Part shown: piece by piece, positions 35,002 through 63,000 of the stretch | How positions within the stretch are numbered: position 1 is the first letter of the stretch | Layout: every line of letters starts with the position of its first letter | Assembly (NCBI RefSeq): GCF_007004725.1 | Contig: NZ_ML660164.1 | Location: 433,501 to 497,500 of the forward strand | Origin: Aliikangiella coralliicola | GTDB taxonomy: Bacteria; Pseudomonadota; Gammaproteobacteria; Enterobacterales; Kangiellaceae | Direction: 5' to 3' | Length of the DNA stretch: 64,000 nt | Translations under genes and position numbers: made by a program | Notes under the pieces: generated by a model | What the model saw: the letters and a program-made list of their open reading frames with translations, nothing else | Databases searched by the model: none | What the model was told of the DNA's origin: nothing

Positions 35002-35778
35002 TTAAATTGCAATCAGGGTTGTTACGCTATTTTTTTCCAGCACAAATTGTCCATCAAATCGACAACCAGCTGTCAGGTCTTCAGTCAGATCTTCGACTAG
35101 CGTTAACTCAAAGCGTTTACTTTCCGGTGAAATTTGTGTGATTTCCGCCGCAGTAAAGTCAAAATAAAATCCGGTATTGGGATATAGCGCTTTAAACAGA
35201 CACTCTTTTGCAGAAAACGTCAGGGTTAACGCTTTGTTAAAATCAATTGAATTTTGTCTTAATCGTTTTTCTTCAGATCCCTTGATCACAATTTCTTTGA
35301 CTTGCTCAACGGTATCGGGCTTTATCCAGTCTTCTCTGTCGACTCCGAGGAAAGTAATATATTGACTTAATCCGACCACCGAAAGGGCCGTGTTATTCGT
35401 ATGAGTGATTGAGCCGTTAACGCCTTTCGGCCACACCGGCGAGCGATGATTTCCAATAGGAATGTGAGTCGCGTTAATGCCTAACTTTCCCAGTGCCGTC
35501 GCTGCGGCATATCGACCAGCTAAAAATTCAGCTTGACGTTTTACTACTGCCTTGTTTAAAGCGGAAGGGCGTTGTATACCGAGTTGATGAAACAGGTTCT
35601 CGTGAAAATGTTCTTTATCAAATTCGCAACAATAAGTGGCTATCTTTCCTGGATTTCGGAAAGCGATAACTTCGCGAGCCTTGATGAACATTTTTGTTGG
35701 TTTTAACTCGCTGTCTGGTTTGTTATCGACATTTGGTTTGTTATCGGTGTTGTCTAAATTATCGCCGGTTTTAAGCAT
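35002..35778 (-). CDS. 4'-phosphopantetheinyl transferase, EntD/Sfp superfamily
   Basis: The enzyme would transfer phosphopantetheine from CoA to carrier-protein serines. The 258-residue protein has GRYAAATALGKLG, SITHTNNTALSVVG, the metal-binding GVDREDW and FSAKECLFKALYP, all in EntD order. It differs from AcpS, the usual ACP enzyme. It lies 24 bases downstream of a type II thioesterase gene, the pairing typical of NRPS/PKS loci, yet no synthetase is in the window. The N-terminal 30 residues are low-complexity (DNTDNKPNVDNKPDSE). Confidence 0.85.
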   Translation of the reverse strand: MLKTGDNLDNTDNKPNVDNKPDSELKPTKMFIKAREVIAFRNPGKIATYCCEFDKEHFHENLFHQLGIQRPSALNKAVVKRQAEFLAGRYAAATALGKLGINATHIPIGNHRSPVWPKGVNGSITHTNNTALSVVGLSQYITFLGVDREDWIKPDTVEQVKEIVIKGSEEKRLRQNSIDFNKALTLTFSAKECLFKALYPNTGFYFDFTAAEITQISPESKRFELTLVEDLTEDLTAGCRFDGQFVLEKNSVTTLIAI

Positions 35779-35802
35779 GATTTTTATTTGAGAAGGATCC
35801 AG

Positions 35803-36591
35803 TTATACCACTCGAAGCATTGAAGAGGCATCTTGCATCTCAAGATTATCCAATACTGATTTTGCAACTTTTATGACTTGACGTAATACAGCGGGCTTAT
35901 TACTTTCAATAAAAAAATGATCGCCGGAAATCATATAGACGTTAGCAGAGTGAGTAAATAAATTTTCCCAGCATTGTAAGTCTGACAAAGTAATTAAATG
36001 ATCCTCACTACCACCTAGTACAGTTATTTTGGTGTTCAGTATTTTCCTTGAAGCACAGTAGGTGTCTGCTATCTTAAAATCAGCTCTTAGTAATGGTAAA
36101 CACAGCTCCATTAATTCGTCGTTCTCAAGTATCTCCTTCGGTGTACCATTGAGTGATTTGAGTTCCGCTACTAGCTCATTATCTGGCAAGTCGTAAATAG
36201 CGTCTTCTCGGCTGGATAAGTAAGCAGCACGGCTTCCAGATGCAATAAAATGTTCAGGTAGCCGAATGTTCATCGCTTGACATCTGAGCATCAACTCAAA
36301 GGCTATTTTACTGCCTAAGCTGTGACCGAATACCAGGTAAGGGCGATCAATCATTTGTGAAAAATCAATGACTAGATCGTCGATTAACGGAGTCATTTCG
36401 CTGTAGGGCGCCTCTAACATTCGAGAGGAGCGACCGGGCGGTTGTACGGCGATCAAGTCTATTGTATCGGGCAGATAGTTTACCCAAGATAAATAAGTTG
36501 ATGCGTTTCCACCAGCGTAAGGAAAACAAAGTAACTTGATCTTTGCGTTTGGCCGGGGCCTTGGACGTAAGAACCAGTTTGAGAGTGCCAT
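35803..36591 (-). CDS. Type II thioesterase (alpha/beta hydrolase)
   Basis: The 262-residue protein shows the type II thioesterase layout: LLCFPYAGGNASTYLSWV, PPGRSSRMLEAP, the nucleophile elbow FGHSLGSKIAFEL and the catalytic histidine in MISGDHFFIESN. These enzymes clear mis-primed thiol groups on NRPS/PKS carrier domains. It is followed at 24 bases by the phosphopantetheinyl transferase, in the same direction. No carrier-domain gene other than acpP is in the window. Confidence 0.87.
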   Translation of the reverse strand: MALSNWFLRPRPRPNAKIKLLCFPYAGGNASTYLSWVNYLPDTIDLIAVQPPGRSSRMLEAPYSEMTPLIDDLVIDFSQMIDRPYLVFGHSLGSKIAFELMLRCQAMNIRLPEHFIASGSRAAYLSSREDAIYDLPDNELVAELKSLNGTPKEILENDELMELCLPLLRADFKIADTYCASRKILNTKITVLGGSEDHLITLSDLQCWENLFTHSANVYMISGDHFFIESNKPAVLRQVIKVAKSVLDNLEMQDASSMLRVV

Positions 36592-36875: not shown

Positions 36876-38426
36876 TCACCAGATGGTTGGTTCGATTCCG
36901 GCTCGGGTTAATGTTTCTGACAAACCTTCCAATTGCTTTTCATAATGACGCCAACGATTAATGGATGTTTGATAAATATTTCCCCTGACCTGGGCAGCAC
37001 TTGCGGTTGCAGTGCTAGATTCGTTTTTATTGATTTGTAAAAAATCCGGCTTCCAGGTAAGTCCACAAAACTCAAATACTTGTTTAGCAGTTATTGCCGG
37101 CTCAGTGACTAGCTGTTCGTAATTGACTTCAATTAGTTGACTTTTATTTTGGCGATGCCAATGAGCCATCAGCTTTCTGTAGGCAATGTAATATTGACCA
37201 ATTTGCTCCAAACTATAAGAAAACGGGTAAGCTTGTTCAAAGTAAGTTTTATACATGGCGTAACAGGCTGCCATTGGTGCACGTGTGAGGTGAATGATTT
37301 TTGCATTGGGGAGTGCTCGTTGAATGAGCCCGATGTTGAGGAAATTGAGTGGCAGTTTATCGATAAAATATTTGCTATGACCAGTTAAAGGTCGAGTACT
37401 CTCGATATAATCAAAACCCAATTGGTCGAAGTCAAGTTCAGCAGATTTTTTGATTAATTCGAGTTTGTTGTTTATTTTTCCGGCGAATTTAGAATTAGCC
37501 AATCGAGTTAAACAATTCGAAAAGTTGTAAAGTTCTCCCGCTGAATAAACCTCGGGGTGATTAGTCATAATTCTCTCTAGCAGAGTGGTGCCTGTTCTAG
37601 GTAACCCAACAATAAAAATAGCTTCATTATTTGTAAAATCGCCAGCTTCTTTTGCTGCTTTGGAGATGTCAAAAGTTGCTTGTAAATGTTTCATTGCTTC
37701 GAGATCATGTTCAACTTGATACCGACTTACTTGCAAACGCAGCTCGTTGGCTTTTTTCAGCGAGGTGAAAGATGCTTCGTACTCAGCACAATCTTCCTGT
37801 TCTTTTGCGATGGAAAAATACAGCTTGATTTGCGCGGCGATATTCTCGGAGTTTGTTTTGGCTTGTTGATTCAGTTGGGGTAGATGATTATTTTTTGCGG
37901 TGGCTGTTTTTAATAGTGAACGAGCCAAATAAGCATCCCAGTCAGTCGGGTTTATTGCTAAAGTCTCGTTGAGTTTTGCGTAGGCTTTGTTAATTTCTCC
38001 CCGGTTTCGATAGCTAGTCGCCAAGCTATATTTGAAGTGAGCGTTTTGTGGATTTAACAAGACCGCTTGTTTCAAACAGTAATGAGATTGGTCATATGCG
38101 TTAAGTTGATGAAGTATTATACCAAGTTGATACCAGTCTTTTGCTAACAACTCAGGTTGAGTATCCATTAGCGCTATAGCGTTTTTGAGGGCGGACTGGC
38201 TATCACCCGAGAATAAATAACATCGGCTTTTTAAGATCTGAATTTGAGGTTGTTTGCCATCAATTTTTTCAGCTTGCAAAGCACTTTCTAACGCGCTCTG
38301 ATATTGTTTTAACTGCAAGCTAATATCGGCAAGCATAAACCAGCCGATCAAATTCTCGGGTTGTTGTTGAGTGAATTGGTAACTAACCTTTTGGGCTTCC
38401 CTCAACTTTTTTTGTCGCACCAACAC
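36876..38426 (-). CDS. TPR-sulfotransferase
   Basis: The N-terminal half (to about residue 250) is a series of tetratricopeptide-like helix pairs (AEKIDGKQP, NAHFKYSLATSYRNRGEINKA). The C-terminal half is a P-loop sulfotransferase: IFIVGLPRTGTTLLERIM near residues 270-287 binds the 5'-phosphosulfate part of PAPS. The GTG at 38426 has no ribosome-binding site, and the same frame continues upstream with a good helix; an ATT at 38459 has AAGGAG nine bases before it and may be the real start. The gene follows a large TonB receptor in the same direction, an arrangement common in marine gammaproteobacteria. Confidence 0.82.
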   Translation of the reverse strand: MLVRQKKLREAQKVSYQFTQQQPENLIGWFMLADISLQLKQYQSALESALQAEKIDGKQPQIQILKSRCYLFSGDSQSALKNAIALMDTQPELLAKDWYQLGIILHQLNAYDQSHYCLKQAVLLNPQNAHFKYSLATSYRNRGEINKAYAKLNETLAINPTDWDAYLARSLLKTATAKNNHLPQLNQQAKTNSENIAAQIKLYFSIAKEQEDCAEYEASFTSLKKANELRLQVSRYQVEHDLEAMKHLQATFDISKAAKEAGDFTNNEAIFIVGLPRTGTTLLERIMTNHPEVYSAGELYNFSNCLTRLANSKFAGKINNKLELIKKSAELDFDQLGFDYIESTRPLTGHSKYFIDKLPLNFLNIGLIQRALPNAKIIHLTRAPMAACYAMYKTYFEQAYPFSYSLEQIGQYYIAYRKLMAHWHRQNKSQLIEVNYEQLVTEPAITAKQVFEFCGLTWKPDFLQINKNESSTATASAAQVRGNIYQTSINRWRHYEKQLEGLSETLTRAGIEPTIW

Positions 38427-38486
38427 TTTTATGGCATCGATGGATATGGTTTGAGAAATGTTTAAGTTCTCCTTAACAACTTTAAT

Positions 38487-38508
38487 ACCCTCCTTAATTA
38501 AGGAGGGT
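38487..38508. repeat. Perfect 22-bp palindrome between the TonB receptor and the sulfotransferase gene
   Basis: ACCCTCCTTAA followed at once by TTAAGGAGGGT. On the minus strand it contains AAGGAGG, a complement to 16S rRNA, about 40 bases ahead of the sulfotransferase start region. There is no T run after it, so it is more likely an operator, a processing site or an mRNA hairpin than a terminator. Confidence 0.85.
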
Positions 38509-38554
38509 TGGATTCAAGCGGTTGATGTTTTTCTAAAAGATTAAAAACAAAATC

Positions 38555-41074
38555 TTATTCAAAAACATATTGCACATTGACACCAATCGTTCTGGGGCGA
38601 GAAATTAACTCGTTACGTCTGGGACCATTTGGCCCAAGGCTAGGCGTGTTAATAATGCCTTCTTCGTTGGCCAGGTTATTAACAAACAACCTGATAGCCC
38701 AGTTATCATTTTCGAAACTGACATAGCTATTCCACATGGAAAAACCTTCCGTCGTAGTACTCGTCGCCGGATTAAGTTGAGAACGTGAATCGCTGCGATA
38801 ATTACCATTAACACCGTAAATCACAAACCAATTGCCCACTTCCGTCAGATAACTCACATCGATAGACGCCGTATGTTTGGGGACGCCAGGTAAACGCTGA
38901 CCTCTAACGGTTGCTGGATCAATTGCCGCTTCGGTTAAGCCAAAAGTATCGGGTTTGTCCAGCGTTGCGTCGACGTAACTATACCCGAAGGTGATCTCTA
39001 GCTCGTCATTAAACACGGTATTTAATTCTGCTTCAAGGCCCTGACTTTTCGCTGTTCCTGCATTGACCACTGCGTTCAATAAAAACGGTGTAACCAGACT
39101 GTCTAATTGTACTTTGTCCCATTCTATATCGAACAATGCTGTACTGTAGCGGAAATCACCGATCCTTCCTTTAAGACCGAGCTCGCGGTTGGTTACTTGA
39201 TCTGGTGCATAACTTAGCAGGTTCGGGTTGGTCTGTACCACGGTAGCATTGCCCAGATCATCGAACACGGTAACTGAGTCGGGGAGTGCGTTCGCGCCGC
39301 CTCGACGGAATCCTTCTGAGTTGGTGAAGTAAATCATTGAGTCTTCACCAATTTGATACGAGGTATTGAATTTAAACAGTACATCATCCTCGCTTGAAAC
39401 TTGTCTGGAACGAGAGGCGGTGTCGACGAAGAAGGCCGCGTTGACTTGTTCATTGTCAAATTCCTGATCAAAAGCACGTATGCCACCGGTAATTTGCCAG
39501 TCATCGCTAACATGCCAAGTGAGTTCTCCGAATATGGCTCTGTCGGTAAACTTGGCTGTTGATCCGCTTAAGAAGTTTTGATCCTTGAGAACCGGTAAGC
39601 CAGCTGCGTCAGCAACTGGGTGAGTACCAGGGTCAAAAATCAGGCTGAAGGCGCCGGTTGTTGTTCCCAGACCGCAATCGTCACGACCTGCCGCGGCGCA
39701 GGCGTCAGCCCAGTCAGCATACCCGCGGAAAAATTGAAAGTTGCTAATTTCAATATCTTGTTCCATATAAAATGCACCAACGACCCAGCTGAAATCACCA
39801 TCATCTTGGGAAACCAATCGCATTTCCAATATATTGGCAGAGTCATTATTTGTCGCAAAGTCAGCAATATAAGGGCGCGGCATAGCGCCATAGCTGGCAG
39901 CATAGAAATCAAAAGCCTGGTAAGCACCGGTCTGGTCGCTTTGTAATTCTTGCTCAGATTCATAGTTTGAAGCTGACGCGGTAAATGTTGCGAATCCCAG
40001 GTCGACTTCTACGTCGAGTGAAAGCAGATCGGTATCACCGGCGTATGGCTCTCGTGATAAAGCCGCCGACTCGTATTCTCCCAGATCCAGGTAGTCTACT
40101 GCACGAGATGGGTTACCACCTGAATCATCTTTCTGGCTGTTATAGGCGAGCAGAACTTCAACATCACTGGTGGCTTCCCATAGCAGCGATACTCGGCCAT
40201 AAGTCGACTCTTCGTCGTTGGTGCCTTCAAATCGCTGAAATACTGATGGACTGTTGAGTGCGTCGGTTGTGTCTGCGGCAACAGGAATGCCTTGTGCATC
40301 TAGTTGATAAGCGCGAGGTTGATCGATCCAGCCTGCCGATTCGGACCGACCGACGTTTGCTCTGAGGGCGACAGTATCACTAATTGGCAGGTTATAAACC
40401 AGGTTTAGTTCAGAGTTCAGGCCATCGCCATTGTCAGTTTGTCCGAGTTTATAGGATATTTCGCCGTCAGTTCCCATTAAATCAGGACGATTTGGAATAA
40501 ACCTGAGAGTCCCACCTAAAGAACCAGAACCATAAAGCGTCCCTTGTGGGCCACGTAAAATTTCAACTCGGTCAATGTCATAGAATCGAATATTTGAAAA
40601 TAGCGGAGTTTCACCAACATAGGTGGAGACACCAGGTGCAGTATAGAGTGGACCAGAAACACGCCCATCCTCAAGACTAAGACCGCGCATTGCAATACTG
40701 GTAGAAAATGCGCCGGTACGCGCCCCTTTATCGGTGTAGGAAACACCTGGAATTCTTTGTGTGAGTTCGCCGAGGTTTGAAATACCAATCTGTTTTAGAT
40801 CACCACCACCGATAGCCGAAATATTATAGGGAACACTTTCTATTGATTGAGAGCGGCGGTTAGCGGTAACCAGAATTCGTTGCTCTTCTTGTTCCGGCGA
40901 ATCAGGTTGCTGCTGCTCAGAAGTAGAACTGGAGCCGCTGTCTGTTGTTGACTGAGAGTCTTGCGGCGCCTGGTTTTTTTCCACCTGTTGATCTGCAACG
41001 ACATTGTTACTGCACGCCAACGAAATTGCCGTTGCTATCAACGTCAATTTAAATCGAGGACTCACTTGTTTCAT
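38555..41074 (-). CDS. Large TonB-dependent receptor
   Basis: The 839-residue protein has a signal peptide (ending NNVVADQ), a low-complexity Ser/Gln/Glu linker (DSQSTTDSGSSSTSEQQQ), then ILVTANRRSQSIESVPYNISAIGG, a plug with VEILRGPQGTLYGSGSLGGTLRFIPN, and a barrel ending in VNVQYVFE with an aromatic at the penultimate position. I chose ATG 41074 because AGAGGT lies seven bases before it; ATG 41092 is alternative. The plug type is that of the large siderophore/sugar/vitamin receptors. It is the first gene of a likely unit with the TPR-sulfotransferase. Confidence 0.9.
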   Translation of the reverse strand: MKQVSPRFKLTLIATAISLACSNNVVADQQVEKNQAPQDSQSTTDSGSSSTSEQQQPDSPEQEEQRILVTANRRSQSIESVPYNISAIGGGDLKQIGISNLGELTQRIPGVSYTDKGARTGAFSTSIAMRGLSLEDGRVSGPLYTAPGVSTYVGETPLFSNIRFYDIDRVEILRGPQGTLYGSGSLGGTLRFIPNRPDLMGTDGEISYKLGQTDNGDGLNSELNLVYNLPISDTVALRANVGRSESAGWIDQPRAYQLDAQGIPVAADTTDALNSPSVFQRFEGTNDEESTYGRVSLLWEATSDVEVLLAYNSQKDDSGGNPSRAVDYLDLGEYESAALSREPYAGDTDLLSLDVEVDLGFATFTASASNYESEQELQSDQTGAYQAFDFYAASYGAMPRPYIADFATNNDSANILEMRLVSQDDGDFSWVVGAFYMEQDIEISNFQFFRGYADWADACAAAGRDDCGLGTTTGAFSLIFDPGTHPVADAAGLPVLKDQNFLSGSTAKFTDRAIFGELTWHVSDDWQITGGIRAFDQEFDNEQVNAAFFVDTASRSRQVSSEDDVLFKFNTSYQIGEDSMIYFTNSEGFRRGGANALPDSVTVFDDLGNATVVQTNPNLLSYAPDQVTNRELGLKGRIGDFRYSTALFDIEWDKVQLDSLVTPFLLNAVVNAGTAKSQGLEAELNTVFNDELEITFGYSYVDATLDKPDTFGLTEAAIDPATVRGQRLPGVPKHTASIDVSYLTEVGNWFVIYGVNGNYRSDSRSQLNPATSTTTEGFSMWNSYVSFENDNWAIRLFVNNLANEEGIINTPSLGPNGPRRNELISRPRTIGVNVQYVFE

Positions 41075-41392
41075 ACTATTACCTCTTTTCATTATTGCCC
41101 CTTCTCATGAGTAATTTATCAATATTATTGGTACGACTAACGGTTTTTATGTTGTTACTCGTTGCTACCTGGTTAGTCGTATCGATTTTTATATTTTGAG
41201 ATAACTTACCCTACAAGGTTTATGAAATGAGTTAAAACAAAGTTTTTTCATTAAATTGATGAAAATTTTTATTACACCGTAAATCCCGTGGCGTGCGGTG
41301 TGTGTATTAAAAATGTTAATGAAAGTAGCCAAAATATTTCAATTGTGAAAGTTTACCTTTCAATGTTAATTTTTTAAGTACGCTCATTGAAC

Positions 41393-48597: not shown

Positions 48598-49995
48598 CTA
48601 AAGAAAACCGTCTCGTTTTAAATCATCCATCGTTTTTTCGATGCTGGTTCGAAAAGTTTTCGTGGCGAAGTCTGATTCTTCACGACTGATTGTCAATGGT
48701 GGTGACATTACAATAATGTTTCCGATAGGTCTCACTATGAGCCCCAGTTTTGCGCAATGCTCAAATAGTCTTTTGGAAATTTCCGCCTCCATTGGGAACG
48801 GCGTTTTATTCGTTTTATCAGCGACAAACTCGACTCCCATCATCAAGTGACTCCCACGACAATCACCGACAATTGGTAAGTCAGCAAGCGAGCAGATTTG
48901 CTCTTGAAAATAAGCGCCGACTTGCTGAACGTGTTCGCAAATGTTTTCACGCTCCATAATTTCAATATTTTTTAGTGCAGCGGAACAAGCTACCGGGTGG
49001 CCTGTATAGGTGAAGCCCATGCTAAAAAGCCCACCTTCGCATTGTGGCTTGCTGATAACCTGGTAAATTTTTTCTGAAATAATTGCAGCACCCAGGGGGA
49101 TGTAACCTGAGGTGATTCCTTTGGCGGAAATAATAATATCTGGTTGCATGTCATAGATGGCTTTTGACGCGAAAAAGTGACCTAACCGACCAAAACCGGT
49201 GACCACCTCATCCGCGATATAGAGAATATCGTACTTCTCGCATATTGCTTTCATGGCCTTATGGTAGCCTTCAGGCGCGACCAGCACTCCACCGGCTCCC
49301 ATAATGGGTTCTGCAATGAAAGCGGCAACACTATCAGCACCCAGCTGTATAATTCTATTTTCAAATTCATTCACCAGAAATTGCGTGTATTCCGCTTCGC
49401 TGAGGTTTTCTGCACCGAGTGGCCGACGATATAGATTGGCTGCAGAAACATGATTAATCCAGTCGTTGGCAATTCGATCAAAACTGTATTTGGTTGCGTG
49501 AATGCCTGTGAGGTTTGCGGCAACATAAGTTGAGCCATGATAAGCGTCATTTCGAGAAATAATTTTTTTCTTATCTGGTTTTCCGCGCACGTTGTTGTAA
49601 AAATGAATCAGCCGGATGGTTGAATCAATTGCGGTAGAACCACCACAAGTGTAAAACACATGATTGAGATCGCCGGGCGCAAGCTCAGCTAACTTAGCGG
49701 CGAGTATTGAACCCGGTGTATTGGTACTGTGCCCGAATGGATTAAAGTACTCCATTTGCATCACCTGATCGGCAATTGCATTTGCCATTTCTTCCCGGCC
49801 ATGTCCAATATTGACACACCAAAGACCTGCGATACCATCGAGATAACTTTTCCCGCTTGAATCTGTGATAGAAGTTCCTTTTGCACCGGTCACAACTTGA
49901 CTACCTTCGTCTTTAAAAGTCGCGAAGTCGGTATAAGGATGAATAAAATGGTTTTTATCCATTTCCCAAATTTGTTCTGGAGAATATGATTTCAT
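48598..49995 (-). CDS. Class III aminotransferase (omega-amino acid/polyamine:pyruvate type)
   Basis: The 465-residue PLP enzyme has GIAGLWCVNIGHGREEMA, the VFYTCGGSTAIDSTIRL cofactor loop, IAEPIMGAGG, ADEVVTGFGRLG and SAKGITSGYIPLGAA with the PLP lysine. It resembles omega-amino acid:pyruvate or putrescine:pyruvate aminotransferases, so it probably deaminates a diamine or omega-amino acid. The LysR gene diverges from it (265-base gap) and an aldehyde dehydrogenase follows that, which fits conversion of an amine to an acid. Confidence 0.85.
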   Translation of the reverse strand: MKSYSPEQIWEMDKNHFIHPYTDFATFKDEGSQVVTGAKGTSITDSSGKSYLDGIAGLWCVNIGHGREEMANAIADQVMQMEYFNPFGHSTNTPGSILAAKLAELAPGDLNHVFYTCGGSTAIDSTIRLIHFYNNVRGKPDKKKIISRNDAYHGSTYVAANLTGIHATKYSFDRIANDWINHVSAANLYRRPLGAENLSEAEYTQFLVNEFENRIIQLGADSVAAFIAEPIMGAGGVLVAPEGYHKAMKAICEKYDILYIADEVVTGFGRLGHFFASKAIYDMQPDIIISAKGITSGYIPLGAAIISEKIYQVISKPQCEGGLFSMGFTYTGHPVACSAALKNIEIMERENICEHVQQVGAYFQEQICSLADLPIVGDCRGSHLMMGVEFVADKTNKTPFPMEAEISKRLFEHCAKLGLIVRPIGNIIVMSPPLTISREESDFATKTFRTSIEKTMDDLKRDGFL

Positions 49996-50260
49996 AAATA
50001 TTCAACTCACCTGGTTAATTTGTTATCAAATGCTTTGCGAGAACGGTTTGTTCTGTGGCAAAGATAGAAGTTACAGCTACAGAATTTAGCGATAAATGCG
50101 TAAGGTTACAAAGGATAAAAATTCAGTGTTTTGATTAGTAATTTTAATGAATTGATACACTAACAGCGGGATTGAACGGTTATTTTCAAAATATTGCTTA
50201 AAATTTTTAATGTGTTATCTTTTAAAGAGCGAATACAAAAGATTGACCCGGAGTAAAATA

Positions 50261-51211
50261 ATGTCCCAAAAACGAGGATTTAATCGGCTACCTCCCTTAT
50301 CAGCTCTAAGAGGATTTGAAGCGGCGGCCAGGTTGAATAGTTTTTCGAAAGCATCCAGCGAATTGTTTATGACGCAATCGGCAATTAGTCATCAGGTGAA
50401 ATTATTAGAAGACTATTTCGGTCAGCCATTGTTTAAACGAGTGAACCGAACCGTTGAAGTGACTGATGCCGGGATCGATTTTTTAAAAACGACTCAGTTG
50501 GTATTAGGGCAGTTACAAAAAGGCGCGATTCGATTAGAGTTTTTTAACAAGCCAGGGTTAGTTGTTCTTACGACGCCGCCATCTTTCGCCAATAAGTGGT
50601 TGATGAGCCGGTTGCATGAATTTAATTCTCAAAATCCAGATTTAAACGTCTGGGTTTATACAAAATATTCACAAGAAGAACTGGAACATGCAGAGGTTGA
50701 TCTGGCTATTTGGCATGGTACCGGAGAATGGACCGGCGTCGAAAAAATAAAACTTTTTGATGATAAAGTGACGCCGCTTTATTCGCCAAAACTATTAACG
50801 GGTGAACAACAAATTAGTGAGCCGGAAGATCTTAAAAATTTTCCGTTAATTCACGTCGAGCAGGTAGAGCGCCGAGAAGATTGGCAGGCCTGGTTTTCTA
50901 TGTTGGGTTTAGGCGAGGTTTCAACGGTACTCGGATATAACTTTAATGATTCAAGTTTAGCACTAGACTACGCAGTTTCGGGACAGGGAGTTGTGTTGGG
51001 TAGCACCATTTTAGCAAAGGATTTGATCGAGTCCGGTGAATTGATAAAACCTTTCGACTCATATTTAAATACCGAGCTAGATTATTACCTGGTATACCGA
51101 AAGGAAAAAGTTGAGTTTGAAAATGTTGAGCGATTTAGACGCTGGATTTTGGCTGAATTTAATATTGATTCGTGCTTTGTACCTGAAAAAATAATTGATG
51201 ACGCCGAATGA
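50261..51211 (+). CDS. LysR-family regulator, GcvA-like
   Basis: The 316-residue protein has the winged-helix LysR domain LPPLSALRGFEAAARLNSFSKASSELFMTQSAISHQVKLLE and a co-inducer domain. The opening sequence is typical of the GcvA subgroup. The frame is open to 50210, but ATG 50261 has GGAG nine bases upstream. It is divergent from the class III aminotransferase gene and is therefore the likely activator of that gene, and perhaps of the aldehyde dehydrogenase downstream of it. The co-inducer is unknown. Confidence 0.9.
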   Translation: MSQKRGFNRLPPLSALRGFEAAARLNSFSKASSELFMTQSAISHQVKLLEDYFGQPLFKRVNRTVEVTDAGIDFLKTTQLVLGQLQKGAIRLEFFNKPGLVVLTTPPSFANKWLMSRLHEFNSQNPDLNVWVYTKYSQEELEHAEVDLAIWHGTGEWTGVEKIKLFDDKVTPLYSPKLLTGEQQISEPEDLKNFPLIHVEQVERREDWQAWFSMLGLGEVSTVLGYNFNDSSLALDYAVSGQGVVLGSTILAKDLIESGELIKPFDSYLNTELDYYLVYRKEKVEFENVERFRRWILAEFNIDSCFVPEKIIDDAE

Positions 51212-51412
51212 ATAATAAGTAGGTTAGGTTGATTGCTAAAATTCAAACGCTTTCCAATTTTTTGGAGGCCTCCTGCTTCCTTCAATTTTAATCGATGAAA
51301 ATTGTTTATCAATTCCATGAATATTTTGCGGCACTTACGCCATTGCAGATTGATTGTGCGAAAGGCACAATAAAATGAGAATTTAACAGATGATTAATAG
51401 TTGGAATATGCG

Positions 51413-52888
51413 ATGACAAACGGACACCTGCACGGCGATAAATTACCTGGCGAAACCTATTACAATTACCACATGGCTTACATCAACGGACGTTGGCAAA
51501 CCATTGAGGGGGGAGAATCTTTCAAGGTGATTCAACCGGCGACGGAAAGAGAAATTGGTTGTATTACTCTGGCCAACTCTCCAGTTGTTAATCTTGCGGT
51601 AGAGGCAGCTAAAAACGCATTTACAAGTTTTTCTCAAACCAGTATTGATGAGAGAGTTGAGCTGCTGGAAAACATTATTCGGATTTATAAAGATAAGTTT
51701 TCTTTAATGGCTCGCCACATTTCTGATGAGATGGGAGCGCCCATGTGGCTGGCAGAAGGGGCCCAAACAGGTTCTGGCTTAGCACATCTTGAGCAGACTC
51801 TGATTGCGCTAAAAGAGTCCAAAGCACAACAGGAAATTGGCGATAGTTTATTGTTTCACGAACCTGTCGGTGTATGCGCGTTAATCACACCGTGGAATTG
51901 GCCGGTTAATCAGATTGCCTGCAAGGTTGCGCCTGCATTAGCAGCGGGTTGTACAATGGTGTTAAAACCCAGTGAAATTGCACCGCTAAGTGCTTACCTG
52001 TTTACCCAGATCCTCGATGAGGCCGGCGTTCCTGCCGGTGTTTTTAATATGATTAACGGTGATGGCCCAAATGTAGGTTCGCAACTTTCTCGTCATCCTG
52101 ATATTGATATGGTTTCTTTTACCGGGTCGACTCGGGCCGGGGTGGCAGTTGCTAAGGCTGCAGCTGATACAGTGAAAAGAGTCTCCCAGGAACTGGGTGG
52201 AAAGTCAGCCAATATATTGTTGGACGATGTTGATTTAGAAATGGCGGTCAGTGAAGGTGTCAAGGCATGCATGCATAATACCGGGCAATCCTGTAATGCG
52301 CCAACCAGAATGTTAATTCCTGAGAATTTGTATCAACAGGCGATTGCCGTTGCACAAGAAACCGTTGCGAAAATGAAAGTGGGGCATGCTGATGATCCCG
52401 AAGCATTTGTTGGGCCGGTCATTAGCCAGCAACAATATAATAAAATTCAAGGCATGATTCAGGATGCGATTGAAGAGGGGGCTGAACTGGTTTGCGGCGG
52501 ACTTGGCAAACCGCAAGGGCTTGAACAGGGTTTTTTTGTTAAACCAACGATTTTTGCCGAAGTGACCAATGGTATGTGTATTGCACAGCAAGAAGTGTTT
52601 GGTCCGGTGCTGGTATTGATCGCTTATCAGAATGAAGAGCAGGCGATCGAAATTGCTAATGATTCTTTGTATGGATTATCGGGATATGTTTCTTCAACCG
52701 ATCCACAGCGCGCTTTAAAGGTAGCCAAAAAAATTCGTTCGGGAATGATCCACATTAATAACGCCTGGACCGATCCAGCGGCACCATTTGGTGGTTACAA
52801 ACAATCGGGCAATGGTCGCGAGTGGGGAAAGTTTGGTCTTGAGGAGTTCCAGGAAGTGAAGGCAGTGATGGGAGCTAAGAATTTTTAG
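51413..52888 (+). CDS. Aldehyde dehydrogenase (NAD(P)+)
   Basis: The 491-residue enzyme has TPWNWPVNQIACKVAPALAAG, SFTGSTRAG for NAD, the general base in QELGGKSAN and the catalytic Cys in NTGQSCNAPTRM. The context is a LysR regulator and class III aminotransferase, so an aminoaldehyde or semialdehyde is the likely substrate. ATG 51413 is chosen; TTG 51401 is also in frame. It has the small-aldehyde substrate pocket of general family members; the exact substrate is unknown. Confidence 0.88.
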   Translation: MTNGHLHGDKLPGETYYNYHMAYINGRWQTIEGGESFKVIQPATEREIGCITLANSPVVNLAVEAAKNAFTSFSQTSIDERVELLENIIRIYKDKFSLMARHISDEMGAPMWLAEGAQTGSGLAHLEQTLIALKESKAQQEIGDSLLFHEPVGVCALITPWNWPVNQIACKVAPALAAGCTMVLKPSEIAPLSAYLFTQILDEAGVPAGVFNMINGDGPNVGSQLSRHPDIDMVSFTGSTRAGVAVAKAAADTVKRVSQELGGKSANILLDDVDLEMAVSEGVKACMHNTGQSCNAPTRMLIPENLYQQAIAVAQETVAKMKVGHADDPEAFVGPVISQQQYNKIQGMIQDAIEEGAELVCGGLGKPQGLEQGFFVKPTIFAEVTNGMCIAQQEVFGPVLVLIAYQNEEQAIEIANDSLYGLSGYVSSTDPQRALKVAKKIRSGMIHINNAWTDPAAPFGGYKQSGNGREWGKFGLEEFQEVKAVMGAKNF

Positions 52889-52964
52889 GCTATTAAAATC
52901 AACAATGCACAAGCGACTTAATTAGTCGCTTTATTCCGGTTTGCGATGAACTTTTTAAACTTTG

Positions 52965-54683
52965 CTATTCATCAACTGATACATAGACGACTTCTCCTTG
53001 TAAAATAGTAATGACAATTTCCGTTTCCAAAATTTGTTGCGGAGAAAGTTGCGTGATGTCATCGCTTAGTACAACCAGATCTGCAGATTTTCCAACTTCA
53101 ATTGACCCAGTAATTTTGTCGATTCCTAATGCTTTGGCTCCATTAATAGTTGCCGCTTTGATCGCGTCATGAATGTTTGGCAACCCAGATGTATGCTTGA
53201 GTCTGGTGGAATTAGCAATGGCGACAAGGGGATTTAACGGGTTAACTGTCCAGTCGCTGCTAAAAGTGACGTTTGCGCCGGTATCAAATATTTTTCGCAT
53301 AGGTAAAAGTTTGCTCGCTCGCTTTTTTCCAATTAGGTTATAAACCCAACTGTGGTCGCCAAAAAATTCTGCACCGGCCTGGAAGTCTGCATCGACATTC
53401 AGTGACTTGAAACGAGCAATATCTTTGTCGTTAACCATTTCGAGATGAGTCAATGCGTATTTTTGTTGACTGCCTTGTTTTCTTGATTGCTCGATTGCGT
53501 TCAACGCTTCATTGATACCTGCGTCACCCACCGCATGAATATGGGCGCCGTAGCCAATCTTATTCAATTGTTTCAACCACGCAGAAAGCTGATCCGGTGG
53601 GATATAATTGAGGCCCGATGGTATATCTGTTTGCCACGACGTCTGGTAAGGTTGGCTTAGTTTGGCAGTACCAAAATGAAGTACGCCATCGGCATACATT
53701 TTAACTTGATTAACGATTAGCAGTTCTTCGGGATCAGGTTGATAAATTTCCTCCAAAAATTTCAGTTGTTTGCTCATGGATAGTTCTGGATAAATCCATG
53801 GACGAATCGACGTTCTGACTTTGACTTGATCATCTTTTAACGCCTGTTGCCAAACTTCATACCAATTGCGGCGCCAGTACATTCTTCCATCGCCTATGGT
53901 GGTAATACCGTTCGCGATGACTTCGTTCATACCGGCAAGCAACCCAGCATAGCTTTGATTAAACACGTCAGGCGCGCTATTCCAGGCTATTTCCATGACG
54001 ATATCGCCGGCATTGTCAAATAAGATACCGTTAGGCTCTCTTGTGTCAGGGTCTATCATGATTCTCCCACCAGGTGGTGGTGTAGCACTTGAATTTAATT
54101 TTGCCAGGTGAAGTGCATAGGAATTGACTAACATCGCATGGGAAGACTCTTCCATGATAACCACAGGGTTGTTTGGAAATACTTCATCGAGTAATCGGAT
54201 TGGCGTAATTTTTAATTGATGATCCATTAATGCGTCGAGTTGGAAACCGTGTCCAATGACCCATGCACCTTTTTTGGATATATTTTGTCGGCAGATTTTC
54301 AGACTGGGGATCTGCTCCTTGAGATTAGCGTTTTTCTCTAACTGGCAATTTCCGCCAACTTGTGAAGCACCTTCAAAAATATGACTGTGCGTATCGATAA
54401 AGCCGGGTAACAACATTTGCTGTCTTAATGAGATAACTTTGGTTTGGTCATCGATAAAATCTTCTAGCCCGTCGTTTTCGCCAACGTAGATAATCGTGCC
54501 GTCGGCAATGGCAACTGCCGTTGCGAAAGGTTGCTTTTCATTAACGGTATAAATCACCGCATCGATTAAAGCGAGATCGGCCATTTTTAACTGCGCTTGA
54601 GCGCCTGCCAGATTGTTTAATTGTGGGTAAAGAAAGATACAGATAATTGCTGTCGTTTTCTTAAACCAATTTCTATTAGACAT
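52965..54683 (-). CDS. Secreted amidohydrolase (YtcJ/Amidohydro_3 type), paralogue 2
   Basis: A 572-residue relative of the gene at 43029, with the same landmarks: LIDAVIYTVNEKQPFATAVAI, LLPGFIDTHSHIFEGA (metal-binding His-x-His), GYGAHIHAVGDAGINEAL, HLEMV and SDWTVNPLNP. A signal peptide (residues 1-29, cleavage AGAQA) sends it to the periplasm. It diverges from the paralogue in the region after the metal His pair (CQLEKN versus CDLIPL). The two copies are 8 kb apart on opposite strands, suggesting related but different substrates. Confidence 0.87.
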   Translation of the reverse strand: MSNRNWFKKTTAIICIFLYPQLNNLAGAQAQLKMADLALIDAVIYTVNEKQPFATAVAIADGTIIYVGENDGLEDFIDDQTKVISLRQQMLLPGFIDTHSHIFEGASQVGGNCQLEKNANLKEQIPSLKICRQNISKKGAWVIGHGFQLDALMDHQLKITPIRLLDEVFPNNPVVIMEESSHAMLVNSYALHLAKLNSSATPPPGGRIMIDPDTREPNGILFDNAGDIVMEIAWNSAPDVFNQSYAGLLAGMNEVIANGITTIGDGRMYWRRNWYEVWQQALKDDQVKVRTSIRPWIYPELSMSKQLKFLEEIYQPDPEELLIVNQVKMYADGVLHFGTAKLSQPYQTSWQTDIPSGLNYIPPDQLSAWLKQLNKIGYGAHIHAVGDAGINEALNAIEQSRKQGSQQKYALTHLEMVNDKDIARFKSLNVDADFQAGAEFFGDHSWVYNLIGKKRASKLLPMRKIFDTGANVTFSSDWTVNPLNPLVAIANSTRLKHTSGLPNIHDAIKAATINGAKALGIDKITGSIEVGKSADLVVLSDDITQLSPQQILETEIVITILQGEVVYVSVDE

Positions 54684-54957
54684 CGTGAGGGCCCCTTAAG
54701 CAGCCTAATGGGAGTTTTATTGAATTATTAAAATAAATATAGCTTATCTTGATAGGGTAATGTGGGTTTTGTTAAGTAACCAGGTTTCGTTATGTATCTA
54801 AGAACAATTTCGTAGTTGATTATGATTGACAATTCGCGTTATTAGCTGATCTTTAACATCCAAAACCCAATCCACAAAGTTCGATCTTCAATACACTGTT
54901 TGAATTCATACGGCAGGAAAAAACAGATTCAAACAAAGAAAGAAAGGTAAACATGCC

Positions 54958-57303
54958 TTAGAGAGGTGGTTTAATTTGCGACTGAAGATGGCGGTAGAAA
55001 TCTCTCGCCATATTAATGCGTTTTTTTAACAAAGGAAGCTGCTGAGAATAAAGGTTTTTTATTTTTTCACTTTCCCAGAACTCCAGTTCTTTACTTAAAC
55101 TAACCGTTGAGTTTTCCATTTGATCTAAACGGGTCATCATAGTCGCAATTGTTGCACTTGCCTGATTTTTACAGGCACTTAGCGCTGAGTGGTTTTTCAG
55201 GTAAACTGCGCCGGTATGGGCAAAGGTATAGTTTTTTCCATAGGCTCTTAGCGCGATCCAGCCGCTGTCCCGGGTTGACAATTGGTAATTCAAACTCAAC
55301 TGGGTTTTGTTGTCTGCAGTATCAGGTGTTATCGTTTTAATGACTTTGCCACAGCGAATGAGTTCTAATCTATCAATCGAATCAAAATCAGAATTAATAC
55401 TGACTTTGCCTTCAATTTTCAATGGGGATTGGTCTGTAATCTCAAGGATACTACCTGGTTCATTATTGTTAACTGAAAGTTGAATGAAAGGGCCATTAGT
55501 TATCAGTGTTCGACCTCGTTTTAGACCATCAAACCATTTTTGAGTAGAAAGAAATGGTTTCGATTTTTCCGTTGTATTTTCAATTTTAACGTAACTTCTG
55601 ACCGCGCCAGGTTGATCAAAGTAGGGGAAGTCGGACCCTGCTGCTGGAGAAATTCTAAAGCCAAGGTTGAGCAGCTCATACCAGAGTTTGGTGCGTAACC
55701 GATTAGCTTGCATAATTTCCACAAAGTCGACTAAACCAAATGGTGCATCCAGCGCCAGTCCCCATGCTGCATTAAACTCACCAGAGCCGACGTGCGCGTA
55801 CCCGGTCAGCGCGTTTTGCTGTTGATAAAATGCCAGGTATTTGTGATAGAGAAAGTACTGTTCGCTAGCCAGTAAAGTATTAGCGACATTGAGCGCAAGA
55901 ATGTGGCCTCGGTGAGCTGTTCTTGGTCCTTCTGTACCGGGAACTATGGCGTTATTATCTATCTGAATTTTGCCTTTTTCGCCCATCGCAAACTGGCGAA
56001 AGTGAGTTTGCTCTGTATTCGTCATTTCCAGCAAGTTGGACACATGAATATCTTCGGCTTTTAATATAGAAAAAATAGAACGGTGATCTTTTTGTCCGCG
56101 TTGCATATGAATGTGAACATCACCTGAAAACCAACCTTTTTCAGGCAGGTTAATCCAGCGTTTCATATCGATTTCAACAATTTGATTGATCGGTTTTCCT
56201 GCAGAGACAGTAATCTCTTTTTGAGCAATTTTATATTCAGGACCCTTGGTCGCTATGATGGTGTAAGTGCCTGCAGATAATTCGACCTGGTACTCGCCAT
56301 CGGAGTACACGAAGTAACGATTAGCATGAGGCCAGTATTGGTAAGGTGCGAAGTAGGACTTTAAGTTCAGGTGTTTGACTTCACGTTCGTAGTATTTAAT
56401 TGGGACTGCGCTTTCAGACGCTAGCACAGAAGAACCACGACTGTTGTAAATACCAAGCCTCACAGGAGTTTTGGAGTCAGTGTTATGGTCAATAAATTTA
56501 AAAGTAATGGTTTGACGAGACGTTTGCGTTTGATTCGGTTGTGGCCGAGTTATTTTGATATCACAAAGGGTAAAAGTTGTCTGGGTCTTTGGGCCGAGCT
56601 CGGCTAAAGGCAACATCGTTTCCAGTGTAGTTAAAACAAAATCTGTACCACCGATACCTCGGTTGATAAATCTGGCTCGGTCTAAATCCAGACTAAGCCA
56701 GAAAAGTTGATTGTCATTAAGGTTTTCACGCGTGTTGTCTAAAGAAACTGTTGCGTTTGCATCGGCTCTTCCATGACGGTCATAGCCGTAAACCAGGGAG
56801 TTGCTATTAGAAGATTTGACCAACAATTTCAGTTGGATTTTTTCATCGATGTCAAAAGCAAAATTATCATCAATATCGAATGCAAGATAATTCGCTTTGA
56901 CACAGTTATTTCCGTTGATCGATTGATATTCTGGGTTTTGCCTGCGAGTAAACGCAAAGGTTCCAAAAGATTCTGGATAGCCTGCAGTGAGAACCCGATT
57001 GATAGATTCTCTTGTCCAATTTAATGTTTTTATTCCGCGCGGATTATCTAAATTAGAGTCGCCTGAAATTGAACTATCGGACTTTGAAGTCTTATTATTA
57101 TCCTTGGTGTTGTCCTTGGTGTTATTCGAATGATTATCGAAGTGATGGCGAGAGCCAGCTATGGTGTCGTGTGCTTGCAGCTCGACATGACTTAAGCCAG
57201 CAATGAACAATAAAAAAAATGGGAGACGGTTAAGTCTCCCCAACAAGCTCTTCCACGAAGTAGGAGCCATGACAAATTCTGTGTGTTGTTGGTGAGTTAG
57301 CAT
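54958..57303 (-). CDS. Secreted CehA/McbA-type metallohydrolase
   Basis: The 781-residue protein has a signal peptide (PFFLLFIAGLSHVELQA; start ATG 57303 or ATG 57270), a low-complexity Asn/Lys/Asp stretch with NTKDNTKDNN, a beta-rich middle with a carboxypeptidase-like repeat near residue 365 (YQVELSAGTYTIIATKGPEYKIA), and a PHP-like metal-dependent hydrolase from about residue 390 (GWFSGDVHIHMQRGQKDH, LLEMTNTEQTHFR). CehA/McbA enzymes cleave carbamate esters. The acceptor substrate is not known. It lies 52 bases downstream of the carbamoylase-like gene, on the same strand. Confidence 0.75.
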   Translation of the reverse strand: MLTHQQHTEFVMAPTSWKSLLGRLNRLPFFLLFIAGLSHVELQAHDTIAGSRHHFDNHSNNTKDNTKDNNKTSKSDSSISGDSNLDNPRGIKTLNWTRESINRVLTAGYPESFGTFAFTRRQNPEYQSINGNNCVKANYLAFDIDDNFAFDIDEKIQLKLLVKSSNSNSLVYGYDRHGRADANATVSLDNTRENLNDNQLFWLSLDLDRARFINRGIGGTDFVLTTLETMLPLAELGPKTQTTFTLCDIKITRPQPNQTQTSRQTITFKFIDHNTDSKTPVRLGIYNSRGSSVLASESAVPIKYYEREVKHLNLKSYFAPYQYWPHANRYFVYSDGEYQVELSAGTYTIIATKGPEYKIAQKEITVSAGKPINQIVEIDMKRWINLPEKGWFSGDVHIHMQRGQKDHRSIFSILKAEDIHVSNLLEMTNTEQTHFRQFAMGEKGKIQIDNNAIVPGTEGPRTAHRGHILALNVANTLLASEQYFLYHKYLAFYQQQNALTGYAHVGSGEFNAAWGLALDAPFGLVDFVEIMQANRLRTKLWYELLNLGFRISPAAGSDFPYFDQPGAVRSYVKIENTTEKSKPFLSTQKWFDGLKRGRTLITNGPFIQLSVNNNEPGSILEITDQSPLKIEGKVSINSDFDSIDRLELIRCGKVIKTITPDTADNKTQLSLNYQLSTRDSGWIALRAYGKNYTFAHTGAVYLKNHSALSACKNQASATIATMMTRLDQMENSTVSLSKELEFWESEKIKNLYSQQLPLLKKRINMARDFYRHLQSQIKPPL

Positions 57304-57354
57304 GTTTCAAATAGCGTTAATATTTCATGAGTGCCTGAACGGTTAATTCTCAAC

Positions 57355-58599
57355 TTACTTAACGATTGCAAGTTCTAAAATAGAATGAAGTAACACGTTA
57401 GCCCCAGCGGCCAGGTCTTCGGATTTCGCATTTTCGGCTTCGTTATGTGATAGTCCGTTTTCACAAGGAATAAAAATCATCCCGGTCGGCACTTTTTGTG
57501 ATACATAAAGGGAGTCATGGCCGGCACCACTGTAGATTTCCATGTGTTGATAATCGAGGTTTTCAGTCGCGTTTTTTATCGTATTAACACAAAGATCATC
57601 GAACTGAGTCACTTCCATCCGCCAGGTTTCCTCTAACGTGTATTCAATCTGATTTGCCTTACAAACTTCATCAACATAGACGCGAAATATTTCATCTATT
57701 TCGTCGAGTGTGCCAGCATCCGGGTGACGTAAGTCGATGCTAATTTTCAATTCTTCTGGAACCGTGTTTCGAGAACCGGGAATTGCTTCAATGCATCCAA
57801 TTGTGGCTCGACCCCATGGACTAAATTTTTCAGCCAGGTCATAACAGCATGCCAGAATAGGTAACATGCTCTGAACAGGATCACGGCGTGATGACATCGG
57901 TGTAGGTCCAGCATGACAAGGTTCACCTTTCAGGCTTAAGTCAAACCATCGTAATCCTTGAATGCCCGTGACCACGCCAATTTGTTTAGCCTCGTTTTCG
58001 AGAATAGGGCCTTGTTCGATATGAAGTTCTATCGCCGCTTTCGCAGGCCGCGGCTTTGCAGGGAGCAGACCTTTATACTCAATTTTAGTGAGCTCGTCTA
58101 ACACGCTCTGCCCGTCGTTATCCGTTATCTGATAGATATCCTCTAATTTAAATTCACCACTCCAAACTCCTGAACCCATGCAAGCGGGCGAAAACCTTGC
58201 ACCTTCTTCGTTGGTCCAGACAACGATTTCAATGGGATGACTAGTAGAAATATGATTGTCGTTGAGGGTTCTGATAACTTCCAGTCCTGCCAGTACGCCA
58301 TAAACACCGTCAAATTTACCGCCGGTTGGCTGAGTATCCAGGTGGCTACCGGTGAGTATGGCTGATTCTTCCTCGGCATCCCCGGAGCGACGAGCGAAAA
58401 TATTTCCGATTTCATCGATCATAATTTCGCAGCCTGCACTGATGCACCAACTCACAAAAAGATCGCGTCCCAACTTATCGAGTTCGGTTAATGCTTGACG
58501 ATTACACCCACCTTTATTTGTTGCTCCGATTTCCGCCATTTCCATTAACGAATTCCAAAGCCTTTGTTGGTTGATGTGTAGGGAAGAATGCTCTGACAT
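57355..58599 (-). CDS. M20-family N-carbamoyl amino acid/allantoate amidohydrolase
   Basis: The 414-residue protein has the M20 hydantoinase/carbamoylase motif set: ILTGSHLDTQPTGGKFDGVYGVLAGLEVI, VVWTNEEGARFSPACMGSGVWSGE, AIELHIEQGPILE and YSGAGHDSLYVSQ. Members hydrolyse N-carbamoyl-amino acids or allantoate to the amino acid or ureidoglycolate with CO2 and ammonia. No hydantoinase or allantoinase lies beside it. A CehA-type gene follows in the same direction. The exact substrate needs biochemical proof. Confidence 0.87.
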   Translation of the reverse strand: MSEHSSLHINQQRLWNSLMEMAEIGATNKGGCNRQALTELDKLGRDLFVSWCISAGCEIMIDEIGNIFARRSGDAEEESAILTGSHLDTQPTGGKFDGVYGVLAGLEVIRTLNDNHISTSHPIEIVVWTNEEGARFSPACMGSGVWSGEFKLEDIYQITDNDGQSVLDELTKIEYKGLLPAKPRPAKAAIELHIEQGPILENEAKQIGVVTGIQGLRWFDLSLKGEPCHAGPTPMSSRRDPVQSMLPILACCYDLAEKFSPWGRATIGCIEAIPGSRNTVPEELKISIDLRHPDAGTLDEIDEIFRVYVDEVCKANQIEYTLEETWRMEVTQFDDLCVNTIKNATENLDYQHMEIYSGAGHDSLYVSQKVPTGMIFIPCENGLSHNEAENAKSEDLAAGANVLLHSILELAIVK

Positions 58600-58769
58600 T
58601 GTATGCTCGATTGTTACTCATTGGTTGAGCGGCTGCTCCCATGAGACTTCAAATTTGTATTAATTTAAGACTCATTGTCAGCCGGACTTGATGTTTTAAC
58701 CAGCATATAAAAATAGAGAGAGGAGAACTACCCACATTTGTGGGTGATCTCAAAAATAAATAGCGAAAA

Positions 58770-59630: not shown

Positions 59631-59839
59631 CGGCAAATAGGTTCAATCGCAAAACATCAATAGCTGTTGGTTGATACTGCCCTGATTAAAACCATCCAAG
59701 GTGTTTTGAAAACCTTGAAGACAGGCAGATATCTTACAATATCATTGTGTTCTGCGATGAAACCTTTTGCAAGCCTATTTTGCTGAGTCTTGTGTCTAAA
59801 AGTTAACTTTTGGCGTTTGGATTATGGGTTTTCAGATAT

Positions 59840-61129: not shown

Positions 61130-61269
61130 TACTTTACTCCCGATCTTCCGACAGATTATTTCGTGTTTTAGTGATTTGTCAGTTTGATCAAGGGACTCTT
61201 AACTTAAAACCGAGATGGCTATGAGTTAAACGATTTTTGAGCCAATGGGATATCAAACCGAACCAAGTA

Positions 61270-61333
61270 TCAATTGAATTAAAAATCAACTGAACTAAGA
61301 ATCAACTGAACTAAGGGTCAACTGAACATGGGT
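61270..61333. repeat. Four 16-bp tandem repeats between gabD and gabT
   Basis: Four 16-base units like TCAACTGAACTAAGAA (the first and last degenerate) reach the gabD stop codon. The rest of the 204-base gap carries no gene. Confidence 0.85.
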
Positions 61334-62784: not shown

Positions 62785-63000
62785 CGTTTTCAACTCTCGT
62801 ATTAATCTTCAATAAGAAAATAATACGCGCAAAGTTGAAAAATAGGCTTTTGAATTTAGATCCTGCGAAAGCAGAAAATGCCGTCCAGGTTTAGTGCAGA
62901 AGCAGAAAATTTCTTTCGCTAAAAAATTTAGATTTTAACAACATTCTAAGGTCTGGACACTTGTAAACAAGCGTTGACTGATCCCGGTTATTTGGCGCAG

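Follow-up and report, generated by a model that had tools for sequence, protein, structure and literature searches.

A TonB-dependent receptor and a TPR-sulfotransferase form a conserved gene pair in Aliikangiella coralliicola and other Proteobacteria: a candidate unit for tyrosine sulfation of a receptor loop

The window analysed here, 64,000 nucleotides of the Aliikangiella coralliicola genome (contig NZ_ML660164.1, positions 433,501 to 497,500), carries on its minus strand a gene for a TonB-dependent outer-membrane receptor followed, after a gap of 128 bp, by a gene for a sulfotransferase fused to tetratricopeptide repeats (TPR-sulfotransferase). A first-pass annotation had singled out this pair and noted an intact P-loop for 3'-phosphoadenosine-5'-phosphosulfate (PAPS) in the enzyme; the open reading frames (ORFs), Pfam matches and residue conservation all bore this description out. 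The unit had been placed at 36876-41074, and the placement holds except for the receptor start, as the receptor ORF begins at 41092 and 41074 is an in-frame ATG downstream of it. The pairing had also been called unexplained, which agrees with the open-access literature (subscription papers and preprints lay outside the search), where nothing was found on a TonB receptor/TPR-sulfotransferase pair. The two genes and the receptor loop that concerns us lie as follows.

38555-41092, minus strand: TonB-dependent outer-membrane receptor of 845 amino acids (ORF, Pfam Plug and barrel domains, subfamily pairing)
36876-38426, minus strand: TPR-sulfotransferase of 516 amino acids, counted from a GTG (ORF, PF13469, TPR repeats)
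39830-39967, minus strand: tyrosine-bearing receptor loop, residues 376-421 (loop side deduced from long loops alternating with short turns)

The receptor matched the Pfam families PF00593 (127.8 bits) and PF07715 (64.3 bits), both above the cut-off, as well as 23 NCBIfam models, for none of which the cut-off was reached. It belongs to a subfamily that accompanies TPR-sulfotransferases. With 957 bits for the window receptor and 614 bits for the window enzyme, both fall into the subfamilies found in the gene cluster described below. In a class-wide sample of 185 genomes, five receptors, of which the window's genome itself supplied two, exceeded 800 bits and all five were paired with the enzyme; the next best receptor reached 416 bits, so the subfamily is set apart.

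The TPR repeats make up the N-terminal half of the enzyme, and a PAPS-dependent sulfotransferase domain resembling tyrosylprotein sulfotransferases (TPSTs) occupies residues ~264-516 (PF13469, 158.2 bits against a cut-off of 27). The PAPS-binding P-loop, GLPRTGTTLLERI, is intact. Residues R277, T281, E298, K357, R382 and S476 were identical in all 28 aligned enzymes, the window's included, the Arg and Thr of the loop being among them. The best catalytic sequence match in the PDB was human TPST2 (E = 2.5e-9, residues 269-463). In this alignment, E298 falls on the second Glu of the TPST2 GEET motif, which we take to be the catalytic base E99, and K357 on the Lys of the NKDP stretch; S476 has no TPST counterpart assigned, because the alignment ends at residue 463. 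A profile search of the enzyme against the PDB was uninformative on the catalytic half, since TPR matches filled the 60 rows listed. The AlphaFold2 model of the enzyme (pLDDT 88.6) was compared with the top chains returned by Foldseek. Seven TPST entries ranked first (Z 19.2-19.9, 2.9-4.0 Å over 237-245 residues), followed by two sulfotransferase domains of polyketide-type synthases (Z 15.9), and the TPR half resembled a wide range of TPR proteins, O-GlcNAc transferase (Z 16.8) included. Sequence and predicted fold alike thus place the catalytic half nearest to the protein-tyrosine sulfotransferases. A predicted fold alone is no proof of function; the joining of TPR repeats to a TPST-like domain nevertheless suits a polypeptide substrate.

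The recurrence of the pair was assessed in several genome samples. A set of relatives held 149 genomes, 53 of which, counting the window's own, encode a TPR-sulfotransferase at E ≤ 1e-20; from a subset of these matches, 80 surrounding loci were fetched. The named collection comprised the best 80 of 587 confirmed relatives and is biased towards the window's type. Pairing was counted by a six-frame hidden Markov model tally; longest-ORF calling misses genes lying under long antisense ORFs in high-GC loci. Enzyme fragments shorter than 400 amino acids were excluded from the enzyme tree and from one enzyme comparison. Among the 80 named loci, 68 had a receptor gene no more than 4 kb from the enzyme, and in 47 a receptor lay directly upstream on the same strand (within 400 bp); among the 80 relative loci the counts were 47 and 27. 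Judging by the density of Plug matches, we estimate that chance would put a same-strand receptor directly upstream of about one gene in a hundred. With this expectation (p = 0.01), finding at least 27 adjacent cases in 80 has a probability of 9e-34, a figure that ignores kinship and assumes independence, which does not strictly hold. Receptor genes are common, but too rare to explain such counts, so the adjacency goes beyond chance. In 18 of the 149 genomes, 19 receptors of the window's subfamily were found at E ≤ 1e-120 (scoring covered up to six candidates in each genome, and the query alignment already contained 15 of the 19), 18 of them with an enzyme within 4 kb and one with an enzyme at 6.5 kb. 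A phylum-wide search detected a TPR-sulfotransferase relative at E ≤ 1e-60 in 152 of 398 sampled genomes. With the window's genome set aside, a cross-check there by listed coordinates placed an enzyme within 4 kb of at least 28 of the 45 top-scoring receptors, among the matches listed (at most three enzymes per genome); three receptors unpaired in this cross-check were paired in the fresh set described below. To the first-pass annotation, the pair seemed to recur in marine gammaproteobacteria. It does so, and more widely, the paired loci spanning what we take, from organism names in the record titles, to be Gamma- and Alphaproteobacteria. Across differing neighbourhoods the commonest partner of the enzyme was a receptor, drawn from two receptor families. 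A seeming receptor-enzyme fusion in one locus (L181, a single frame of 1317 amino acids) was ruled out, as the C-terminal part of the receptor reads frameshifted when inspected by eye.

Paired and unpaired receptors differed in one loop, located between a strand and the strand bearing an E-x-R motif. In a first set from the wider receptor superfamily, after leaving out receptors with unlocatable loop anchors, rows below 150 bits and one duplicate, this loop contained 6.9 tyrosines in 16 paired receptors versus 2.1 in 17 unpaired ones, and Asp-Tyr was present in 13/16 versus 3/17. The set had originally comprised 15 versus 19 rows (7.1 versus 2.4 tyrosines); one identical row was later dropped, and two receptors were reassigned to the paired group, one having an enzyme 1.6 kb away that came into view with wider flanks and the other an enzyme 4.3 kb off in the same locus. 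Asp-Tyr repeats such as DYSDYSDYY or VDYTDY mark paired loops of the wider superfamily and are missing from most unpaired ones. The prediction that paired receptors have a tyrosine-rich loop was fixed before 40 fresh receptors were fetched. These were hand-picked down the ranking of the phylum-wide search and came from 34 genomes, from which no loci had been fetched earlier and some of which had been searched; the exact left loop anchor was set in the analysis script. The loop held 8.79 tyrosines in the 19 paired versus 2.52 in the 21 unpaired receptors (p = 2e-7), and acidic residue-tyrosine pairs ([DE]Y) numbered 1.84 versus 0.24 (p = 4e-7). Over a fixed stretch of 50 residues before the E-x-R strand, the values were 7.58 versus 2.71 for tyrosine and 1.37 versus 0.29 for [DE]Y (p = 1e-4). 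Asp-Tyr was present in 18/19 versus 4/21, a measure added afterwards. The 25-residue stretch with most tyrosines immediately preceded the E-x-R strand in 41 of 61 paired and 4 of 40 unpaired receptors. Whole-receptor [DE]Y hardly differed (0.60 versus 0.49 per 100), which makes the effect local to the loop. These p-values overstate the case, because the paired receptors are kin and fall into about four lineages. In metazoan TPST substrates, Asp mostly stands right before the tyrosine and sulfotyrosines are often clustered, according to a review (PMC9372746); the clustered tyrosines and Asp-Tyr pairs of the receptor loops match the needs of a TPST-type enzyme in the same way.

The window's own loop carries five tyrosines, at residues 377, 391, 397, 401 and 408. 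All 65 paired receptors of the window's subfamily have a tyrosine at the position of Tyr401 (39890-39892), in a loop that is otherwise highly variable, apart from what is mostly a Pro a few residues further on. Since long loops alternate with short turns in the barrel, the loop should be extracellular.

Given the conserved pairing, the joining of a PAPS-binding TPST-like domain to TPR repeats and the enrichment of loop tyrosines, we propose, with a confidence that stands midway between acceptance and rejection, that the TPST-like enzyme, presumably cytosolic, adds sulfate to tyrosines in the loop of its partner receptor prior to export. The pair would then be a dedicated modification unit for an outer-membrane transporter. 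The TPR half may hold the unfolded receptor precursor in the cytosol while the TPST-like half would move sulfate from PAPS to at least one tyrosine of the future surface loop. The sulfated precursor would be exported by Sec and inserted by BAM, and the mature receptor would display sulfotyrosine around the barrel opening, its negative charges possibly aiding ligand binding there. The likeliest acceptors in the window would be Tyr401 and its neighbours 377, 391, 397 and 408. The first-pass annotation had suggested that the receptor or another exported protein is sulfated before secretion; the TPST-like and TPR domains and the tyrosine-rich loop typical of paired receptors support this indirectly. 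Beyond the window, we suggest more tentatively, and with slightly more doubt than trust, that a large bacterial family of TPR-fused tyrosine sulfotransferases exists, many members of which would sulfate the tyrosine-rich surface loop of a neighbouring receptor and so tune how many environmental Proteobacteria capture ligands at the cell surface. Animals, plants and a single plant pathogen are the main sources from which sulfotyrosine is known. If the proposal is true, it would add a new layer of surface-protein modification and alter ligand prediction for TonB-dependent transporters, and the loop with Tyr401 now provides concrete candidate sites.

Several observations weigh against receptor sulfation. 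The loop's position at the surface is itself a deduction. The window's loop lacks Asp-Tyr, as do 48 of the 65 subfamily loops, the motif being present in 17/65. In a tree of 101 receptors, the paired label needed only about six changes and was confined to about four lineages. Two unpaired receptors inside paired clades keep tyrosine-rich loops: one (L316, 7 loop tyrosines) comes from a genome with matches to the TPR part and no full-length TPR-sulfotransferase, and the other (L252) has no enzyme within ~8 kb and four enzyme copies elsewhere in its genome. Conversely, two receptors are paired yet have few loop tyrosines, namely 2 in L310 and 3 in L154, and a third paired receptor (L066) has no tyrosine in the Tyr401 column. 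Among the other receptors, mostly of a second family termed TBa (54 paired, 21 unpaired), overall tyrosine content was 4.67% in paired versus 3.93% in unpaired ones, and [DE]Y was not raised in the paired ones. Finally, 33 of the 80 relative loci had no receptor within 4 kb, with 20 of the 80 enzymes lying near a contig end, and many of these receptor-free loci showed no obvious partner gene.

The main rival to receptor sulfation, rather unlikely in our view and still to be taken seriously, is that the receptor and an inner-membrane carrier import a ligand that the enzyme then sulfates in the cytosol, directly or as a breakdown product, the tyrosine-rich loop merely binding that class of ligand. 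Modification of an imported ligand had been proposed for the pair from the start, and the gene clusters of many relatives speak for it. Many of the closest enzyme relatives sit in a cluster of a MocR-type regulator, a CN-hydrolase, the receptor, the TPR-sulfotransferase, a beta-lactamase-fold (NylB-like) hydrolase and a carrier of the major facilitator superfamily (MFS), as in L205, L206, L126, L131, L156, L174 and L197, often with a gamma-aminobutyric acid (GABA) transaminase (GabT) and a succinate-semialdehyde dehydrogenase (SSADH) added. At least two of the MocR, CN-hydrolase, beta-lactamase-fold and MFS genes lay within 9 kb in 37 of the 80 named loci, in which GabT occurred 18 times and SSADH 15 times. 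The hydrolase model was nearest to PIB-1 (Z 29.1) and the 6-aminohexanoate-dimer hydrolases (Z ~26-27), and such a cluster may release GABA-like amino acids from a large amide. The window itself encodes GabT and SSADH, ~19-22 kb from the receptor gene. Set against ligand sulfation, at least two of the four cluster genes were found in only 5 of the 80 relative loci, and the enzyme also goes with a second receptor family and with quite different neighbourhoods: other TPR-sulfotransferases adjoin TBa receptors, methyltransferases, 2OG-Fe oxygenases or tryptophan halogenases. Moreover, the TPST-like and TPR domains indicate polypeptide substrates, adding sulfate to a nutrient would be costly, and the Asp-Tyr pattern of the loops is left unexplained.

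It is less probable still that the substrate is another exported protein, such as a secreted hydrolase, a flagellin or a secreted repeat protein, the enzyme being no more than co-expressed with the receptor. Some relatives do lie beside two flagellin genes (L087, 3268-9345; L092, 3813-9916; Pfam analysis covering L087), and in L102, L105 and L111 a TPR-sulfotransferase of ~900 amino acids has a giant repeat protein on one side and type I secretion genes on the other (Pfam analysis covering L105); the beta-lactamase-fold enzyme often follows directly 3' of the sulfotransferase. The Asp-Tyr sites of these proteins were uninformative, both in the repeat proteins beside type I secretion genes and in the flagellins, each of the four having one DY, which presumably reflects a general flagellin motif. 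Against such a substrate, the window's genome gave no beta-lactamase-fold match at E ≤ 1e-30, no other exported protein among the clustered neighbour families recurs beside the enzyme as often as a receptor, and the loop tyrosines would have no explanation. We give distinctly little credit to a sulfated compound that the cell makes, exports and retakes through the receptor, as happens with methanobactin. Receptor, sulfotransferase and carrier do occur together in many clusters, and in the window a type II-like thioesterase and a phosphopantetheinyl transferase (35002-36591, minus strand, Pfam) lie directly downstream of the pair; genes of these two kinds usually keep company with nonribosomal peptide or polyketide synthases. 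The cluster genes with an annotation encode a regulator, hydrolases, a carrier, a transaminase and a dehydrogenase and include no biosynthetic core, although no search for a synthase was made in the window. Slightly fainter again is the case for chance or hitch-hiking neighbours, the tyrosine pattern then being inherited within a handful of receptor lineages and nothing more. The 57 Plug matches in the 7.04 Mb host genome show how abundant TonB receptor genes are, and the paired lineages number only about four; the adjacency is nonetheless far over expectation, and in two proteobacterial classes.

The start of the enzyme gene and the intergenic region add two further features.

38427-38459, minus strand: putative in-frame N-terminal extension of the sulfotransferase (reading frame and aligned relatives)
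38487-38508, minus strand: perfect 9-bp hairpin with a 4-base loop and no T run, between the receptor and enzyme genes (fold computation)

Upstream of 38426, the sulfotransferase frame contains no ATG, GTG or TTG, and aligned relatives begin further upstream. An ATT at 38459-38457, with AAGGAG 9 bases ahead, is a possible true start that would restore helix A of the first TPR; the gene either uses the rare start codon ATT or has undergone a change of its start codon. The fold of the whole 141-nt intergenic stretch had a z-score of -1.83, and the hairpin was not among the terminators listed by terminator prediction; it may make receptor and enzyme expression unequal. Of the other enzyme copies in this genome, the closest (C13) adjoins the closest receptor paralogue in divergent orientation.

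Further afield, the window and the sampled loci hold genes that touch on the amide/GABA-type cluster.

59840-61129: GabT
61333-62793: SSADH

Both belong to a region of amine/amide catabolism (48598-62793) with two aminotransferases (one being GabT), two aldehyde dehydrogenases (one being SSADH), an allantoate-type amidohydrolase, a CehA/McbA metallohydrolase and a second amidohydrolase like that at 43029. CN-hydrolases in the window's genome were distant only (best match 88 bits). The beta-lactamase-fold hydrolase family is uncommon, being matched in 10 of 295 relatives and, across the class, in 1 of 369 genomes (E ≤ 1e-30). It is independent of the enzyme, since one locus (L204) combines MocR, GabT, SSADH and the hydrolase and has neither receptor nor enzyme over 18 kb, as is also the case for the four weaker members L209-L212. 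No description of the amide/GABA-type cluster was found in the open-access literature, in which no search was aimed at the hydrolase part. Elsewhere, TPR-sulfotransferases lie near DUF3450/ExbB/TonB energising operons (L055, L058, L069, L107, L110, L118), in some cases with 2OG-Fe oxygenases or tryptophan halogenases. The window ORF at 7362-9215 (minus strand), far from the pair, fell into one BLAST cluster with ABC transporters from the type I secretion loci L102, L105 and L111. A surface or exported protein is a common thread of these neighbourhoods, though many of the receptor-free relative loci show no obvious partner; a similar point is made in one sentence, from unpublished observations, in a review (PMC9372746).

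Among systems already described, the nylon-oligomer pathway, in which NylB acts before a transaminase and a dehydrogenase, shares the NylB-like hydrolase fold, GabT and SSADH with the clusters of many relatives. These clusters add a TonB receptor, a sulfotransferase, a CN-hydrolase and MocR, and their hydrolase was not found in the window's genome. O-GlcNAc transferase and SPINDLY join a TPR superhelix to a transferase domain as the enzyme does; theirs moves sugars, not sulfate, and the likeness is limited to the TPR half. RaxST of Xanthomonas, like the enzyme proposed here, is a bacterial, TPST-like and cytosolic protein that acts on an exported polypeptide. RaxST lacks TPR repeats, however, and what it modifies is a small peptide that leaves the cell through a type I system. 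The neighbour in the window is a TonB receptor instead, and no raxA/raxB-like type I export genes were found beside the pair, whose neighbours by ORF and Pfam analysis are the receptor, the thioesterase and the phosphopantetheinyl transferase; the layout of L102, L105 and L111 is closer to RaxST-RaxAB. Bacterial protein tyrosine sulfation is described for RaxST/RaxX of Xanthomonas in PMC9372746, and PMC6637879 describes RaxST homologues that occur in a variety of contexts with no RaxX. The metazoan TPST1 and TPST2 are the best sequence and structure match of the catalytic half, with a Glu aligned to the second Glu of GEET, and their preference for an acidic residue before the tyrosine matches the candidate sites of the wider receptor family, the window's own loop having no Asp-Tyr. 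Unlike them, the enzyme described here has no Golgi anchor, is presumably cytosolic and is fused to TPR repeats, and its substrate is predicted. The receptor, in turn, has the Plug and barrel in common with siderophore-type TonB-dependent receptors, while its subfamily is tied to the TPR-sulfotransferase.

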